From Natrinema ejinorense (GTDB lineage Archaea; Halobacteriota; Halobacteria; Halobacteriales; Natrialbaceae): DNA of 64,000 nucleotides. The DNA lies in assembly GCF_002494345.1 (NCBI RefSeq), contig NZ_NXNI01000001.1:3162001-3226000 (forward strand), written 5' to 3'. The notes below the pieces were generated by a model. The model was not told where the DNA came from. It did not search any database and worked only from the letters and a program-made list of their open reading frames with translations. Shown here piece by piece: positions 2,994 to 62,006 of this stretch (position 1 is its first letter; every line of letters begins with the position of its first letter). A program made the position numbers and the translations under genes.

Positions 2994-4459
2994 TCGACCG
3001 ACAGGTACGCTGGCGAGGGGCCATCGCGGCGACGGTCGCGCTCGCCATCGCCGGGGTCGCCGACGGAAACCCCGTTCTCCTGTTGGGTGCGGTCATCCCG
3101 CTGGTCTTCGTCGCCGCCGGCTCGCTGTCCCGTGTTCGGGTCCCCGAGGGGCTCGTCGCGACCAGGACGGTAACGCCGACGCCCGCACCCCCCGGCCAGC
3201 CGGTCACCGTCACGCTCGAGGTGACCAACGACTCCGATCGGACGATCACGGACCTCCGGGTCGTCGACGGCGTTCCCGGGGAGCTGGCCGTTCTCGAGGG
3301 ATCGCCCCGGGCCGGCGGGACGCTCGAGCCCGGTGATCGGATTCGCGTGGAGTACCTCGTGGTGGCTCGCCGCGGCGAGTACGCGTTCGAGCGGCCACAG
3401 TGTCGCGTTCGCGGACTCGGCGCGAGCGCGATGGCGACGACGGCGCTGCCAGTGTCGGGCGATCGGTCGGTCGTCTGCCGACTCGACGCCGACGCGCCGC
3501 CGATCGAAGAGGACGGCTCACAGCGCGTCGGACAGCTCACCGTCGACGATCCCGGCGAGGGGCTCTCGTTTCACTCGACTCGCGAGTACCACCCCGACGA
3601 CCCCGCGAACCGCATCGACTGGCGTCAGTACGCGAAACGGGGGACGCTGGCAACGGTCAGGTACGAACGACAGGTCTCGGCGACCGTCGTGTTGGTCCTC
3701 GATGCACGCGCGCCCAACCGCGTCGTCGCCGGCCGCGGACGACCGACGGCCATCGAATACGGCGCCTACGCGGCGACCCGTGCGCTGACCGATCTGCTCG
3801 GCCACGGCCACGACGTCGGCGTCGCCGTCATCGGGCTGGACGGCCCCGGACCGGCCGGCTGTTACTGGCTCGAGCCCGCAAACGGCCCCGAACAGCGGAC
3901 CCGCGCGCTCGCGCTCCTTCGCCAGGTGATCGACGAGGAGCCCCCGACCGTCCGCGGTTCGGACACACACCGCTCCGGTGCCGGCCGGCGCGGATACACC
4001 GGGGAGCAGGTTCGCAAAGTGCTCGAGCTCGCACCGACGAGCGCACAGCTCGCGTTGTTCTCGCCGCTCCTCGACGATCCGCCCGTGAACGCGGTCGAGA
4101 CCTGGCGCGGCGCGGGACTGCCCGTCGTCGTGCTCTCGCCCGACGTCGTCCCGGCAAACACCGTCAGCGGCCAGTACGAGCAGACGCGACGACGAACGCG
4201 GCTGGCCCGCTGTCAGGCCGCCGGTGTGCGGACGGTCGACTGGCGACGGGGGACGCCGCTGCCCCTCGTCATCGAGCGCGCCTTCGCCGCCGACACGCGG
4301 CTCTCGAGTGCGCGACTCACCGGCGGCGCCGCGAGCGGAAACGGACCGTCGGACACCGATCAGTCGGCCCCGGAGGGTGGAGCCGCCGGCCAATCGAGCG
4401 ACCACACCGGGTCGGAACGGACCGCCGATCGGCGGACGCGTCCGGGAGGTGACGACTAG
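2990..4459 (+). CDS. DUF58 domain protein
   Basis: This 489-residue protein has two N-terminal hydrophobic helices, a beta-sandwich region of CARDB type (about residues 55-150) and a DUF58 core. The DUF58 signature is the segment RIDWRQYAKRGTLATVRYE near residue 208, followed by a von Willebrand A-like fold with the VLDAR strand. DUF58 proteins are almost always encoded beside MoxR AAA ATPases, and this operon follows that rule. The GTG start overlaps the preceding stop. The C-terminal 50 residues are low-complexity Ser/Gly/Asp-rich, common in halophile tails. The partner complex is not biochemically defined. Confidence 0.85.
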   Translation: MIDRQVRWRGAIAATVALAIAGVADGNPVLLLGAVIPLVFVAAGSLSRVRVPEGLVATRTVTPTPAPPGQPVTVTLEVTNDSDRTITDLRVVDGVPGELAVLEGSPRAGGTLEPGDRIRVEYLVVARRGEYAFERPQCRVRGLGASAMATTALPVSGDRSVVCRLDADAPPIEEDGSQRVGQLTVDDPGEGLSFHSTREYHPDDPANRIDWRQYAKRGTLATVRYERQVSATVVLVLDARAPNRVVAGRGRPTAIEYGAYAATRALTDLLGHGHDVGVAVIGLDGPGPAGCYWLEPANGPEQRTRALALLRQVIDEEPPTVRGSDTHRSGAGRRGYTGEQVRKVLELAPTSAQLALFSPLLDDPPVNAVETWRGAGLPVVVLSPDVVPANTVSGQYEQTRRRTRLARCQAAGVRTVDWRRGTPLPLVIERAFAADTRLSSARLTGGAASGNGPSDTDQSAPEGGAAGQSSDHTGSERTADRRTRPGGDD

Positions 4460-5908
4460 ATGTCCCTGGCCGGCCCCCGCCTCGATCGCCCGTCCGCGAT
4501 CGGCGACGAGGGACGACCGCGGGCGGCGAGCCTCTGGATCGCCAGCCTGGCCGTCATCGTCGTCGTCGGCGTCGTCGGCGTCGCGATCGACCTGGCCTCG
4601 CTGTTGCCGACCCTCGGGCTGGTCGTCGGCATGACCGTCGCGGGCGTGGGCCTGCTCGAGCGCGACGGGTTCGTCAATCAGGTCGTGGCCCACCTGTTCT
4701 TGCTGACGTTTGGCTCGGCGTTCGCACTGGCAGTGCTCGCGGCCCCGTTCGTCTCCCGCGTCGGACTCGCAGTGAGCGGGTCCGCGCTCGCGCTGGCCGG
4801 GATCGCGGCGGCCTGGGCCGACGTCGGCGGCGACACGCTCAAACCCGCCGCGATTGGAAGCGCGATCAGCTACGTGTCGATGCTGTGTGCGGCCGTACTG
4901 GCGGCAGTGCTGGCCGTGATCGTCTTCTTCGGATGGACGGTGCTGACCGGAATCGTCGGCGTTTCGACGCCGGTCGCCTCCCTCACCGGATTCCTCATGA
5001 TCGTGGCCGCCATCGGCGGCGCCGTCGGGCTGGCGCTGCGATGGCTCCCGATTCGACAGTTGACCCGGCGGGACCGCCGCCCCGCGGTCGAACGCCGACT
5101 CGCGACCGTCCGTCGTCGCCTGCTGTATACGGTCGCCGGGTCGGTCGCTGCGATCGCCGGGATCGCGGTCCTCGTGATCGCCGGCGTCTTCGAGGGAGCG
5201 ATACGCAGCGTTCCGGGACTTGCAGTCGCCCTCAAGGCGTTGTCCTCGCCGTTCGTCGTCTGGCCGATCGTCGCGGTCGGCGCGGGAGCCGTCGTCCTCG
5301 GCGTGGTCGCCGTCGGGTTGCGACGGTTCACGCGGCAGGTCACCGCGGAAACGACGCGCCGGACCGCCGCGATGACCGTCGGCGTCGTCCTGTCGCTGCC
5401 CTTCCTCCTCGGACTGGCGCTCCTGATCGCGAGCAGCGGGGCCGTCGTCGGTCCCTTCCTGCTCGGGAGCGTGCTTCTCGTCCCGCTGTTGCTGGGACCG
5501 CTGGCGTTTCTGGCCGTGATCGGTGGCAGCGTCGCCGCCGTGGGACTGGGGCTGCTCCCCGCACGGGCGACCGGACCGGCGATCGCCGCAACGGGGCTGA
5601 TCGTCGCAGCCATCGGTCTGGGACGAGCGAGCCCGCTCGTCGTCTTCGCCTGCATCGCCACAGCGGTCCTCGTCTGGGATACCGCGACGTTCGGCCTCGG
5701 CGTCACCGCCGAACTCGGCCACCTCCCCGATACCCGCCGGCTCGAGTTGTTCCACGGGGCTGTCGCCGTCGGGATCGCCGTCGCCGCCGTGGTCCTCGTG
5801 ACCGGGCTCGAGTTGCTCCGGGCCGGCCTCTTCGGCAGCGCCAGCGCGGCCGGCGCTGCAGTCGTCGTCCTGGGTGCGTTACTCCTGTTGGTGCCGTTGC
5901 GCGGCTAG
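4460..5908 (+). CDS. Polytopic membrane protein, DUF7519-like
   Basis: The ATG immediately follows the DUF58 stop. The 482 residues are dominated by hydrophobic Ala/Val/Leu/Gly segments, giving an estimated 12 or more membrane helices interrupted by short Arg-rich loops (for example RQLTRRDRRPAVERRLATVRR near residue 200). No transporter motif or catalytic residue is evident. The length, position between DUF58 and MoxR, and composition match the haloarchaeal family labelled DUF7519. It could be a membrane platform for the MoxR-DUF58 module, which is inference only. Confidence 0.6.
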   Translation: MSLAGPRLDRPSAIGDEGRPRAASLWIASLAVIVVVGVVGVAIDLASLLPTLGLVVGMTVAGVGLLERDGFVNQVVAHLFLLTFGSAFALAVLAAPFVSRVGLAVSGSALALAGIAAAWADVGGDTLKPAAIGSAISYVSMLCAAVLAAVLAVIVFFGWTVLTGIVGVSTPVASLTGFLMIVAAIGGAVGLALRWLPIRQLTRRDRRPAVERRLATVRRRLLYTVAGSVAAIAGIAVLVIAGVFEGAIRSVPGLAVALKALSSPFVVWPIVAVGAGAVVLGVVAVGLRRFTRQVTAETTRRTAAMTVGVVLSLPFLLGLALLIASSGAVVGPFLLGSVLLVPLLLGPLAFLAVIGGSVAAVGLGLLPARATGPAIAATGLIVAAIGLGRASPLVVFACIATAVLVWDTATFGLGVTAELGHLPDTRRLELFHGAVAVGIAVAAVVLVTGLELLRAGLFGSASAAGAAVVVLGALLLLVPLRG

Positions 5909-33156: not shown

Positions 33157-36100
33157 TCAGATCTGCCGGAGCAGTTCGAGGACGTCTGCGAACCCGATCC
33201 GACCGTTCTCGTCGAAGTCGAACGCGTCGGGGTTGTCCTGGACGCCGTCGGTCTCGAGGTTCTCGAAGAAGGCGTTGACGTCCTCGTGGGTCGTCTCCCC
33301 GTCCCCGTCGACATCGTCGTAGAGCCCGTCACCGTCGGGATCCGTCGGCCGCTCGCCGTCGATCACCGGTGGCCGCTTGCCGTCCGCGCCCGACGCGGTT
33401 CCCGGGACGTCGACGGCTCCGACGTCGTCGCTACGGGACGGTTCGATACCGACCAGATCGTCGAAGGTGGCCACACAGCGGGTCCCGCTCGCGTGGCTGG
33501 TGACGGCCAGTCCCACCCGGACGCTGCTCGAGAACGACAGCGAGATCTCGGCCAGAAGCTGCCAGCGCTCGCCGTCGGCGGACGTGTACGCCCGAACCGC
33601 GTTGCCCGAGCGGACGAGCCGTTGCCAGGCGTGGTCGGTCGTCCCGCCGGCGACCTCGCTTTCGCCCGCGGCACCCGAGGTCAGGCTCACCGTTTCGCCG
33701 CCGACTGTCGGTCGCCACTGTACCGACGTCGCCGACGGCGTCCGCCGAATCATCGCGTTTTTCGCGCCGGCGTCCATCGAACCTCGGATCATGAGGCCGG
33801 CTTTCGCGTATTCGTCCGTGTTCTCGACGTCGTCGACCCTGACGGAGAGATCGAAATCACCGGTCGCGCTCGTCGAATAGTAGTGGCATTCGTCGGCGGA
33901 TCCCCAGATATCCGCGCCGGCACCCTCGACCGTGTACGGGCCGGCACCCCCGGTCCGCGGGGCGACGGGTTCGAGTCGCCAGCGCTGATCGTCACTCTCG
34001 TTCCATTCCCACTGGACGGCGTTTGCCCCGTCGGCGACGCTGCCGCCGGCTACGCCGAGGACGAGGTCGGAGTGGCTGGCGACGAGGCGATACGCGCCGT
34101 CCTCGAGCGGATCGAGGTACCACCGTTGGTTGTCGTTCCCGTTCACCGTCCACTGCTGGACGTTCGCGCCGTTGTCGGTCGACGCCCCCGCGACTTCCAG
34201 TGCCTTCCCCGAGCCGGCGGCGACGATTTCGTACGCGCCCTCGCCGACGTAGCGAAGGTCCCATCGCTGGTGTGTCAGGTCCTCGTCTGTGCCCTGTTGG
34301 ACGGTGGCACCATCCGATTCGTCGCCGCCGGCGACTTCGAGGACGTGGCCGGAGTTGGCGTTGACGAGCCGGTACGTGTCGGCCGGCACGTTCGCGGCGT
34401 CCGGCAGGCCGATGATGTCGGTCGGGTCGTCGACCGATTCGTCGGGACCGACCGGGTCGATCTCCGGCGTCGGCGGTTCGTCCATGCTCGAGCCGATGTA
34501 GAAGCTCGGGTGGGGCGGCTGGTTGTATCCGACGTTCTGCCAGGCGACCGCCGTCCGGTACTGCGAGTCGTGCATCAGCGTGTACAGCCGATGGTCGGTC
34601 TCGTACGGCGTCACGAACAGCCGGAGAGCCTCGTCGTCGTCGCGCCGCCAGAGCACCTCCTCGCGCCAGTCGCCGAGGATGTCGGCGGTCAGACACGGGT
34701 TCCCCTTCGTCCCGTTGTTCGAGCGCGTTCCCGGGAACGCCTCGAGTTCGGTGGTCGACCGGCTATCGGGGTCCCACTTGTGGAGCGTGGGGCCGTCCCA
34801 GTCGTCCACCAGTTCGCGCTGTAAGTCGCCCGTCCACCACGCGAGGTGGTTGATCGACCAGGGGGCATCGCCGATCCGCTCGCCGTCGGCGGCGCGGAGG
34901 CCGACGCCGTTGGACGCCCAGGCCTCGACGCCCCGATGGTTCGGATCGATGTTGGCGGCGACGCCGCGGCCGACGTCGCCCGCCGCGTCGACGGTCCAGA
35001 GCGGCTCGCCGGTCTCGCCGTCCCGCATCGTCGCGCCGTAGGGCCCCGACTCGTGGGGCTGGAATATCTCGAGGCCGTCGCGGTCGGGCAAGAAGTCCCC
35101 GCAGTGGAGGGCATCGCCGTGGTGCCACCCGGTCGTGTGTAGGCCCGTGCCGTCGTGGTCCAAGGCCATCGCACCGTAGACGATCTCGTCGCGGCCGTCG
35201 CCGTCGAGATCGGCGATGCTGAGCTGGTGGTTGCCCTGTCCGGCGTAGTCGCCGTTACCCGGCTCGTCGCTGTCGAAGGTCCACCGCTCGGTGAGGTCGC
35301 CGTCGCGGTAGTCGTAGGTGGTGACCATCGTTTTCTCGTAGTAGCCGCGGCCTACGACGATGCTCGGTCGCTCGCCGTCGAGGTACGCCACGCCCGCGAG
35401 GAAGCGGTCCACGCGGTTCCCATAGCAGTCACCCCATTGGCAGGGGTCTCCCCGGGCGGGCCGGAAATCGGTCGTCACCAGTTCCTCGCCGGTCGTCCCG
35501 TCGAAGACCGTGAGATACTCCGGCCCGTCCAGAACGTATCCGTCGTCGTTCCGCCAGTCGGCGTCCGGGTCGCCGATGACGTTCCCGGCGGCGTCGACGG
35601 TGCCGTCGGCCGTTCGGACGACGAACTCCGCGATGCCGTCCCCGTCGAAGTCGTAGACGAGAAACGGCGCGTAGTGTGCGCCCGCCCGGACGTTGATCCC
35701 CAGATCGATGCGCCAGAGCGGCTCGCCCTCGAGCGTGTACGCGTCGAAGATGTGCGGATCCGTCCGTCCGCTCTGTGAGTTGTCCTTCGCGTTGTCCGGC
35801 GACCACTTCACGACGATATCGTAGCTGCCGTCGCCCGTCAGGTCGCCGACGCTCGCGTCGTTCGGGTGATAGTTGTCACCGGGTCTGTCCAGCGGGATGT
35901 CCAGGTAATTGTCCTCCCAGACGCCGACCGACTTCGATTCCTCCCGTTCGGTGCCGTCGACCACCGGGCGGATCGCGTACGTCGATTCGGTCGTCCCGTC
36001 CGGATCGACGTAGTTCGTCCCGTCCGTGATCGGAGAGTCGTTCGCCCGCGTTCCATCTCGATAGAGGTTGAAAGCGACGTCGTCGGGGTCGGTCCCGAAC

Positions 36101-59886: not shown

Positions 59887-60201
59887 ATGTCCAAGGTCGA
59901 CCGGTTTTTCCGATCACTTTCGAACGGTCAACGGCGTCGGTTGTTAGTCCATATGTTAGACCACAATCCGGAGGACGACTCGAAACTATACATCGGCGAT
60001 ACCGAAACGACCGACGAGGAACTGGAAGCACTTCTCGTCGAGATGGAACACACGCATCTGCCGCTGTTGGAAGACTACGGGTTCATCAACTGGGACCGGG
60101 ATACTCACGAGGTGACGAAGGGACCGAAGTTCGACGAAATCAGGCCGCTCTTGGAGTTGATGGTGAACCACCGAGACGAACTCCCCGATAATTGGCTCTA
60201 G
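59887..60201 (+). CDS. Small DUF7344-type winged-helix protein
   Basis: A 104-residue protein with FFRSLSNGQRRRLLVHMLDH and the helix-wing EHTHLPLLEDYGFINWDRDT, similar to the C-terminal part of the regulator at 25660. A likely DNA-binding regulator with unknown target. It lies 87 bp after the DUF6517 gene on the same strand. Confidence 0.7.
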   Translation: MSKVDRFFRSLSNGQRRRLLVHMLDHNPEDDSKLYIGDTETTDEELEALLVEMEHTHLPLLEDYGFINWDRDTHEVTKGPKFDEIRPLLELMVNHRDELPDNWL

Positions 60202-60559
60202 GACGCGAATCGATGCCGCGTCGAGTCCCTCGAGCGCCGACGGTCGGTCCCCGGGTTCGGGTTTCACGGCTCGCAAGTCGTCTCGAGGGCGCACCTGGTC
60301 CGGCCTCGTTACGTTCGATTAGCAGTAGATATAAGTCACGACGAGTCAAATAGGAAACCGGAAGCCGGTCTCCAGCGACAAGGGGGCTGTATCGAAATGC
60401 CCCGGGTGTAGTGGCACCCGAGACGTGGCTTCCAAACCCCGATGAGGGATCCGGTTGCCATGATTACGTTGATTCTACCGGGATATAAACGTCCCGCACG
60501 AGTACGGAATCGCCCGACGCGACTAGTCTCGACGCTCTCGATCGGGAGGTGCGATCGCG
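60202..60559. other. Intergenic region with a promoter-like box and structured RNA candidate
   Basis: No gene in the conventional sense is visible here. A TATA-like GATATAAG at 60329-60336 is followed about 25 bp later by a strongly foldable segment at 60356-60456. Downstream another AT-rich stretch (GATATAAAC near 60482) may serve the next small gene. Confidence 0.45.
60356..60456 (+). ncRNA. Candidate structured non-coding RNA
   Basis: The segment folds into a closed multi-stem structure. Outer AACC/GGTT (60356-60359 with 60453-60456), GGAAGCC/GGCTTCC (60360-60366 with 60427-60433), GTCTC/GAGAC (60368-60372 with 60420-60424), then a three-way junction bearing GGGGC/GCCCC (60383-60387 with 60399-60403) and GGGTG/CACCC (60404-60408 with 60415-60419); a small CCC/GGG hairpin lies in the 3' arm. 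An alternative longer pair AACCGGA/TCCGGTT competes with the second stem. A TATA-like box precedes it. I do not recognise a known RNA family. Confidence 0.5.
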
Positions 60560-60775
60560 ATGTGTAGCGAGGAGACGCGAAACGACGACGGCCGAGTGGA
60601 CGACTCGGCGCTGCTCTCGTGTCCCAGCTGTGGCCAGCCGATTACCGGGCTGACCTCGACCGGGCCTCACACCGGCGTCGTCAGGCCCTGTGGCTGTTCG
60701 GTCGCACCTGGGCTGATCCACCGCGAGCGCGACAGCGGCATCCACCGCGAGACCGGCTGCGAGAACGGCGAGTAA
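60560..60775 (+). CDS. Small zinc-ribbon protein
   Basis: A 71-residue protein with two Cys pairs, LLSCPSCGQPITGL and VRPCGCSVAPG, spaced as a zinc knuckle, and a charged tail with HRERDSGIHRETGCENGE. Small zinc-ribbon proteins are abundant in haloarchaea and mostly uncharacterised; nucleic-acid or protein binding is possible. It lies about 100 bp after the RNA candidate. Confidence 0.72.
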   Translation: MCSEETRNDDGRVDDSALLSCPSCGQPITGLTSTGPHTGVVRPCGCSVAPGLIHRERDSGIHRETGCENGE

Positions 60776-61418: not shown

Positions 61419-61850
61419 TCAGGCTCGAGCGCGGGTCCGTTCGGGCGTGTCGGCTTTGTTGTTCGCGTAGGCGTTGTAGGCCGAGAGGAAAGCCACGAGC
61501 ACGCCGGAGATCGCGGTCCCGGTCGCGAGTTGGGCGCTCCCCATCTCGATGACGGAGGGCGAAACGAGCGCCCACAGGCCGAGCACGACGGCGAGCGACG
61601 CGACGCCGACGCTCGCCAATCGACCCCGCGACAGCCGAGAGAAGTTGTAGCCGGCCAGCAGGAAGATCGCCGTTCCGGTCAGGGTATCGTTCCAGACCGC
61701 CGCGTCCGTGGACTGGAAGAGAAACGGCGAGGCGACGAGAGAGAGCCCGATCAGCGCGACGAGGGCACTCACCCACTGCATCGCGTCCGTGTTGAGCGAG
61801 TTGTAGTCGGTCCGGGCCTCACGGCCGGTGTCGGTTGGTGTATCACTCAT
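61419..61850 (-). CDS. SPW repeat membrane protein
   Basis: A 143-residue protein with four membrane helices in two similar halves. Each half resembles the SPW unit (GLSLVASPFLFQ before an Asn/Trp segment, and GLWALVSPSVIE), a family of small membrane proteins of unknown role. The ATG at 61850 was chosen; the frame extends 54 bp upstream without coding character. Confidence 0.82.
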   Translation of the reverse strand: MSDTPTDTGREARTDYNSLNTDAMQWVSALVALIGLSLVASPFLFQSTDAAVWNDTLTGTAIFLLAGYNFSRLSRGRLASVGVASLAVVLGLWALVSPSVIEMGSAQLATGTAISGVLVAFLSAYNAYANNKADTPERTRARA

Positions 61851-62006
61851 ACGTTCGTCACGACCGCGGTAGCCCCCATTCGGAAAAAACGGGAGTGCTT
61901 GCATCTGTCGGGAAATCGTCGACCGGTCGGACCGGCCGTTCGATCCCTCTAGGCGTACCGAACGGGGTGACAGCCGCGTCGAAATCCCGATCCGCGTTCG
62001 GGACTG

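Follow-up and report, generated by a model that had tools for sequence, protein, structure and literature searches.

A recurrent family of candidate structured leader RNAs precedes small zinc-ribbon genes in haloarchaea and shares its architecture with haloviral early operons

Introduction

Structured RNAs located at the start of early or otherwise long operons are known as antitermination RNAs in HK022 (put) and in Bacillus (EAR). To our knowledge, few classes of cis-acting RNA have been recognised in archaea.

The nearest described relative of the operon studied here is brz-brb of Halobacterium salinarum (PMC3184054; PMC2253796). In the accessible text of these two papers, brz-brb is a bicistronic operon that combines a small CPxCG zinc finger with a small basic protein, the zinc-finger gene coming first, and that is tied to the bop locus; this text reports no structured leader for it. 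The cassette of Natrinema ejinorense that we have analysed has the same bicistronic design but the reverse gene order, with the basic protein first and no bop gene beside it, and therefore does not belong to brz-brb. It lies in a window of 64,000 nucleotides (the whole stretch of DNA under analysis), in which a preliminary description had singled out an isolated structured RNA. The structured RNA stands, but its isolation does not: we read it as the 5' leader of a coupled operon that is present in multiple copies and shared with haloviruses.

Results

Organization of the cassette

On the + strand, the TATA-like sequence TAGATATAAG (60326–60335) is followed by a folded leader, a basic ORF of 35 codons and a zinc-ribbon ORF of 71 amino acids, forming a two-ORF operon. 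The promoter box had already been proposed in the preliminary description and is indeed present; it is conserved over 160 copies and stands at a nearly fixed distance from the first helix (P1). The predicted 5' leader (60360–60459), supported by comparative and folding evidence, contains the helices GGAAGCC/GGCTTCC, GGGGC/GCCCC, GGGTG/CACCC and CCC/GGG, which are confirmed. P1, which pairs GGAAGCC (60360–60366) with GGCTTCC (60427–60433), encloses two hairpins in a three-way junction (60360–60433): P2 (60383–60403; strands 60383–60387 and 60399–60403), with a conserved GAAA in its loop, and P3 (60404–60419; strands 60404–60409 and 60414–60419), directly abutting P2. Sequence and fold further suggest P1b, pairing GTCTC (60368–60372) with GAGAC (60420–60424), of which some copies retain only a part. 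A small hairpin, P4 (60438–60448; strands 60438–60440 and 60446–60448), lies just 5' of the start codon of the short basic ORF MITLILPGYKRPARVRNRPTRLVSTLSIGRCDRDV (60460–60567), and another one, P5 (60479–60496; strands 60479–60484 and 60491–60496), lies within this ORF. The zinc-ribbon gene (60560–60775; CPxCG...PCGC) begins before the short ORF has ended, so that start and stop overlap, and is preceded by a Shine-Dalgarno-like GGAGGT (60545–60550); a similar motif lies ahead of 64 of 124 zinc genes.

The RNA was originally placed in a gap with no gene, about 100 bp before a small zinc-ribbon gene. That gene does lie beyond, 104 bp downstream, but the gap is not empty: the short ORF, previously unlisted, comes directly after the structure and runs into the zinc-ribbon gene. 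The upstream neighbour of the leader is a DUF7344 gene (59887–60201) with the same direction, and the downstream neighbour is an SPW-domain gene on the minus strand (61419–61904). The segment 61055–61188, 3' of the zinc-ribbon gene, has matches of 73–76% at other loci independently of the cassette, with a relative upstream of a cassette in one case (L015), and resembles a dispersed repeat.

Promoter spacing and predicted transcript start

Measured from the first base of the TATA-like motif, P1 lies 34 nt downstream in 77 of 78 distinct copies and 33 nt downstream in the remaining one. This spacing is kept while the intervening stretch varies, and it predicts that transcripts begin at the foot of P1. 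In the record of the virus phiH1, whose genome is the subject of PMC6210493, the start of the early lytic transcript T4 is annotated at 34556, the first base of its P1, and TAGATATAAGT begins 35 nt before it. From the promoter spacing and by analogy with T4, transcription of the window copy would start at, or 1–2 nt before, 60360.

Comparative evidence for the fold and its strand

Folding energy was only modestly better than chance for the + strand of 60329–60456 (z -1.8, with 10 of 200 shuffles folding as well), and the minus strand did better (z -4.1, 0/200). The core alone (60356–60436) folds as the three-way junction already proposed, which none of 300 shuffles matched. The decisive support for the predicted fold is comparative, not energetic. 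Since a MAFFT alignment misplaces the variable stems, RNAalifold recovered from it just 11 pairs, none with both sides changed, and each copy was therefore parsed individually. Among 199 pattern matches, 38 failed the parser, leaving 161 parsed copies, or 160 after manual removal of a bacterial contig (L185).

Compensatory changes in the stems of homologous gaps, whose absence was to have argued against the RNA, were found in relatives. Over the nine positions of P1 in the 161 parsed copies, G.U cells outnumbered A.C cells by 134 to 6, and P5 had 90 against 13. Because these G.U cells would be mismatches on the minus strand, the RNA is assigned to the + strand; together with the compensatory changes, this excess in P1 and P5 establishes, at the level of sequence comparison, both strand and fold. 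P5 pair 3 is G-C in 113 of the 161 copies and A-T in 40, and the whole hairpin reads CGAGAC-AAAAAG-GTCTCG in Natrialba and Halovivax copies versus CGGGAT-ATAAAC-GTCCCG in Natrinema copies. In P2 (pair 4: GC 128, AT 20, GT 6), the strands of a copy pair better with each other than with strands swapped between copies, none of 2000 shuffles reaching the observed value. P4 varies in sequence with its pairing retained, and its own-strand energy was reached by 3 of 2000 between-copy swaps. P3, being invariant inside the family, is uninformative there, and its changes with retained pairing come from diverged leaders (for example L218, L220 and L240).

These data also bear on the idea that the conserved unit is a DNA element, such as an operator or a palindromic promoter, or an RNA of the minus strand. 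The better folding of the minus strand alone and the resemblance of GGGATATAAACGTCCC to a palindromic TATA box would fit it. Nevertheless, the G.U excess in P1 and P5 argues for an RNA of the + strand, and in the Natrialba and Halovivax form of P5 the TATA is lost with the pairing kept, so that we regard this reading as very improbable. The right-hand GGGATATAAACGTCCC as a TATA box is itself ruled out by the RNA-type compensatory change at that place.

A short ORF coupled to the zinc-ribbon gene

The start codon of the short ORF is ATG in 136 of 138 copies. In 114 of 121 copies its stop falls 0–20 nt beyond the point where the zinc gene starts, compared with 3/121 and 0/121 for the other two frames (counts that exclude 60 matches without the right-hand motif). 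Codons 2–22 show no synonymous excess, non-synonymous changes being about as frequent per site as synonymous ones (1.01). This suggests that the frame, with P5 inside it, is retained more than the peptide, and leaves a conserved peptide as the purpose of the short ORF unsupported.

A CPxCG...PCGC gene follows the leader in 124 of 160 copies, overlapping the short ORF in 123 of them. Of the remaining 36, 17 carry a different ORF that overlaps, mostly of CxxC...CxxC type, and in 19 none was found. The four cysteines of the zinc-ribbon protein are retained without exception by all 79 homologues aligned; between two close genomes, the zinc genes differ by 32 non-synonymous and 22 synonymous codon changes, which weighs against function. 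The structural model is modest (pLDDT 72), with weak resemblance to ribosomal-type zinc ribbons only, and a search with this fold gave no match at E <= 0.001. In a Halostagnicola copy (L151, 5047–5382), the second ORF resembles a HalOD1-type output domain fused to a zinc ribbon. The gene table of two plasmid records (L280 and L281, ~4001–4700), stated to be incomplete, lists neither a short ORF nor a zinc-ribbon gene.

Family size and distribution

A DNA search found three further strong copies in the genome of N. ejinorense (90, 85 and 77% identity) and, at E <= 0.1, hit 99 of 125 genomes from the taxonomic family. A covariance model built from 78 copies (R1), mainly a sequence model with its 11 base pairs, detected 82 of the same 125 genomes at E <= 0.001. 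Copy counts per genome are lower bounds in both searches (6 candidates per genome for the former, 26 for the latter). When 150 candidates were rescored in each of 13 chosen genomes, N. ejinorense had 4 copies and the other 12 had 6, 8, 17, 20, 20, 21, 23, 27, 28, 29, 29 and 32. Matches occurred in 101 of 392 genomes from the order, and the 38 of these that lie outside the family gave weak ones; among 148 genomes drawn from the phylum only four matched, three belonging to Natrinema and the fourth being a weak case. Carriers among the matches listed comprise Natrinema, Halopiger, Halovivax, Halostagnicola, Natrialba, Natronoglomus, Natronorubrum, Natronolimnohabitans, Natribaculum, Natrarchaeobius and Natronobiforma, and the bacterial matches among those listed in the public scan look like chance.

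The RNA had been called unassigned, and no Rfam family reaches its threshold: the whole window gave no match to Rfam 15 at gathering thresholds, and the best sub-threshold match in the region, glmS with 11.4 bits versus 37 required, is a chance one. The class is previously undescribed, being absent from Rfam and from the open-access literature searched (most subscription journals lie outside it).

Cassettes also occur in close tandem pairs (L016, ~475 bp apart; L161; G030:C1:2400218 and 2401361). In a sister genome (G060:C1:2069000–2074000, locus L287), an extra copy lies between duplicated ORFs, and the flanking segment is missing from the genome of N. ejinorense; the gene beside it is presumably similar to a DUF4157-type protein. 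Signalling proteins as neighbours were dropped, since PAS proteins occurred near 11 of 144 copies and controls 60 kb away had PAS_4 in 3/77 and HTH_10 in 5/77.

Diverged leaders and an alternative pairing

Beyond the family, thirty loci were retrieved from 16 genomes, 28 of them readable (L222 and L224 are too short). Twenty-five of these 28 yield a junction in which P1 surrounds P2 and a directly adjoining P3, and no more than 2 of 100 shuffles attain their scores; 26 carry either GAA or AAAA at the loop of P2. Some groups have a quite different P1 sequence, such as GGAAGACCGGTGCC/GGCACCGGTCTTCC or GAACGCCAGC/GCTGGGGTTC. In a set of 18 diverse leaders picked by hand, 16 were parsed, 12 of them with 0/60 shuffles reaching the score; the leaders of the viruses Humcor2 and LSV-48N were unparsed and the HRPV9 parse was wrong. 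The genes that follow diverged leaders vary, including one for a 48-aa zinc ribbon, and usually code for other small zinc-binding proteins. One of them, judging by its motif, we take to be a SWIM-type zinc finger; it had no Pfam match.

Such an association of zinc-binding proteins from several unrelated families with a single retained core might point to a riboswitch responding to a ligand, for instance zinc, that governs them. The alternative pairing AACCGGA/TCCGGTT, initially put forward as a switch, does exist in the window copy. Nevertheless, over 160 copies it scores 3.64 of 7 pairs, a value attained by 169 of 500 random swaps, versus 3.58 for the swaps, and all seven pairs are present in just 12 of the 160, so that the pairing is not conserved and the proposed switch fails. 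Together with the small number of conserved unpaired bases available for a pocket and the lack of an Rfam relation, this makes a riboswitch improbable.

The same architecture in haloviruses

The leader architecture also heads the early operons of phiH1, phiCh1, BJ1 (upstream of ORF21) and HRPV9, and probably that of the lemon-shaped virus LSV-48N (described in PMC12714723). Both phiH1 and the window copy fold as a three-way junction with P2 abutting P3. HRPV9 has the leader architecture, with a plain minimum-energy fold that is not the junction, and Humcor2 has it too; the LSV-48N leader was recognised by eye and by its fold, and the first gene of its operon codes for a zinc ribbon with 38% identity to that of the window (E 5e-3). 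Four patterns searched against IMG/VR gave 15 matches, three of which were accepted as leaders, namely contig L277 (R1 E 2e-12), L347, which is HRPV9 itself, and L353; the remaining 12 have the appearance of chance hits. In six of the seven viral cases (phiH1, phiCh1, HRPV9, Humcor2, BJ1, L277 and LSV-48N) the divergent neighbour is annotated as, or resembles, a repressor or regulator, the exception being a hypothetical protein in Humcor2. No such divergent gene accompanies the window copy, which is not classed as a viral early region because the DUF7344 gene upstream points the same way. The kinship of the phiH1, phiCh1, BJ1 and LSV-48N leaders would rest on architecture, promoter and position rather than on sequence similarity. 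After the phiCh1 leader, an ORF starting with MARFNRHPKSN (L285, 9211 onward) occupies the position of PhiH1_275 in phiH1 and is absent from the listed phiCh1 annotation.

Processive antitermination, in which the nascent leader would modify the RNA polymerase and thereby allow read-through of early operons, as with HK022 put, is suggested by the place of the RNA at the 5' extremity of the transcript, by the long early operons downstream in haloviruses and by helix sequences that are mostly free while fold and GAAA are retained. It seems unlikely, given that most host copies precede two tiny ORFs only, with little gain from read-through, and that the two hairpins flanking the start codon, P4 and P5, would have no explanation; moreover, we know of no processive antitermination mechanism of the put type in archaea.

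The viral relatives may also be taken to mean that the chromosomal copies are non-functional remnants of proviral control regions. Their number ranges from 0 to 32, the sister-genome copy lies in a segment absent here, and, between two closely related genomes, orthologous leaders show 91–95% identity, compared with 91–96% upstream, so that leaders evolve no more slowly than their flanks, which counts against function. Yet the promoter spacing (77/78), the cysteines (79/79) and the frame coupling (114/121) would not outlast neutrality at such divergence, and we find this origin quite unlikely as an account of the family.

Discussion

Sequence comparison establishes the promoter spacing, the fold and its strand, the frame coupling, the copy number and the architecture shared with viral early operons. 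The best explanation, to which we give a probability of roughly 55%, is a cis-acting class of 5' leaders of temperate haloviruses and haloarchaeal chromosomes that controls the coupled translation of zinc-ribbon proteins. Transcription would start at the foot of P1, and the RNA would fold P1 around P2 and P3, and then P4, leaving the start codon of the short basic ORF in an open stretch flanked by P4 and P5. Ribosomes translating this ORF would terminate where the zinc-ribbon gene begins, and the zinc-ribbon protein would then be made by coupled re-initiation. A common factor for all copies, either a protein, for instance the zinc-ribbon product, or a shared regulator of host or viral origin, may bind the conserved P2 loop and the junction and set the output. 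From the position of the leader at the first bases of the transcript, the hairpins flanking the start codon and the coupled gene, we infer that control is exerted in cis and mainly on translation. Likewise, the recurrence across genomes and the same design at viral early operons indicate that the leader probably controls the expression of small zinc-binding proteins. The lack of synonymous excess in the short ORF and the 36 of 160 copies without a recognised CPxCG/PCGC gene count against this explanation.

More speculatively, hosts and at least four unrelated kinds of haloviruses might share one regulatory RNA class that the Natrialbaceae have multiplied into regulons of up to about 30 cassettes of leader and coupled zinc-ribbon gene, answering the same viral or host factor as the viral early leaders and acting as an infection-responsive or immunity network, an idea that we regard as doubtful.

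An RNA class that is repeated up to 32 times per genome and missing from Rfam links one control element to a large set of small zinc-binding proteins. The early lytic leader of phiH1, whose start was mapped decades ago, gains a conserved structure and a family, and the control of early genes by nascent or translational leader RNAs in archaea and their viruses becomes testable.

Among known systems, HK022 put and Bacillus EAR have another fold and are bacterial. The C(P)XCG micro-proteins of Haloferax volcanii are, as in the window, very small zinc-binding proteins with a CPxCG motif. The second pair of the window protein is CGC instead of CPxCG and, unlike these micro-proteins, the zinc ribbons studied here form a large lineage-specific family under one type of leader; a text search of PMC11241148, on the C(P)XCG proteins of Haloferax, returned no match. 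The T4 leader of phiH1 and the repR/ORF49 gap of phiCh1 share with the window copy a P1 that encloses P2, with its GAAA-type loop, and P3 (GTG...CAC), and in phiH1 also the promoter and, as predicted for the window copy, a start at the first base of P1. They differ by unrelated helix sequences, by a further long hairpin that separates the leader from the first ORF (34640–34720 in record L339), seen in both phiH1 and phiCh1, and by a long early operon with repH downstream and a divergent repR.
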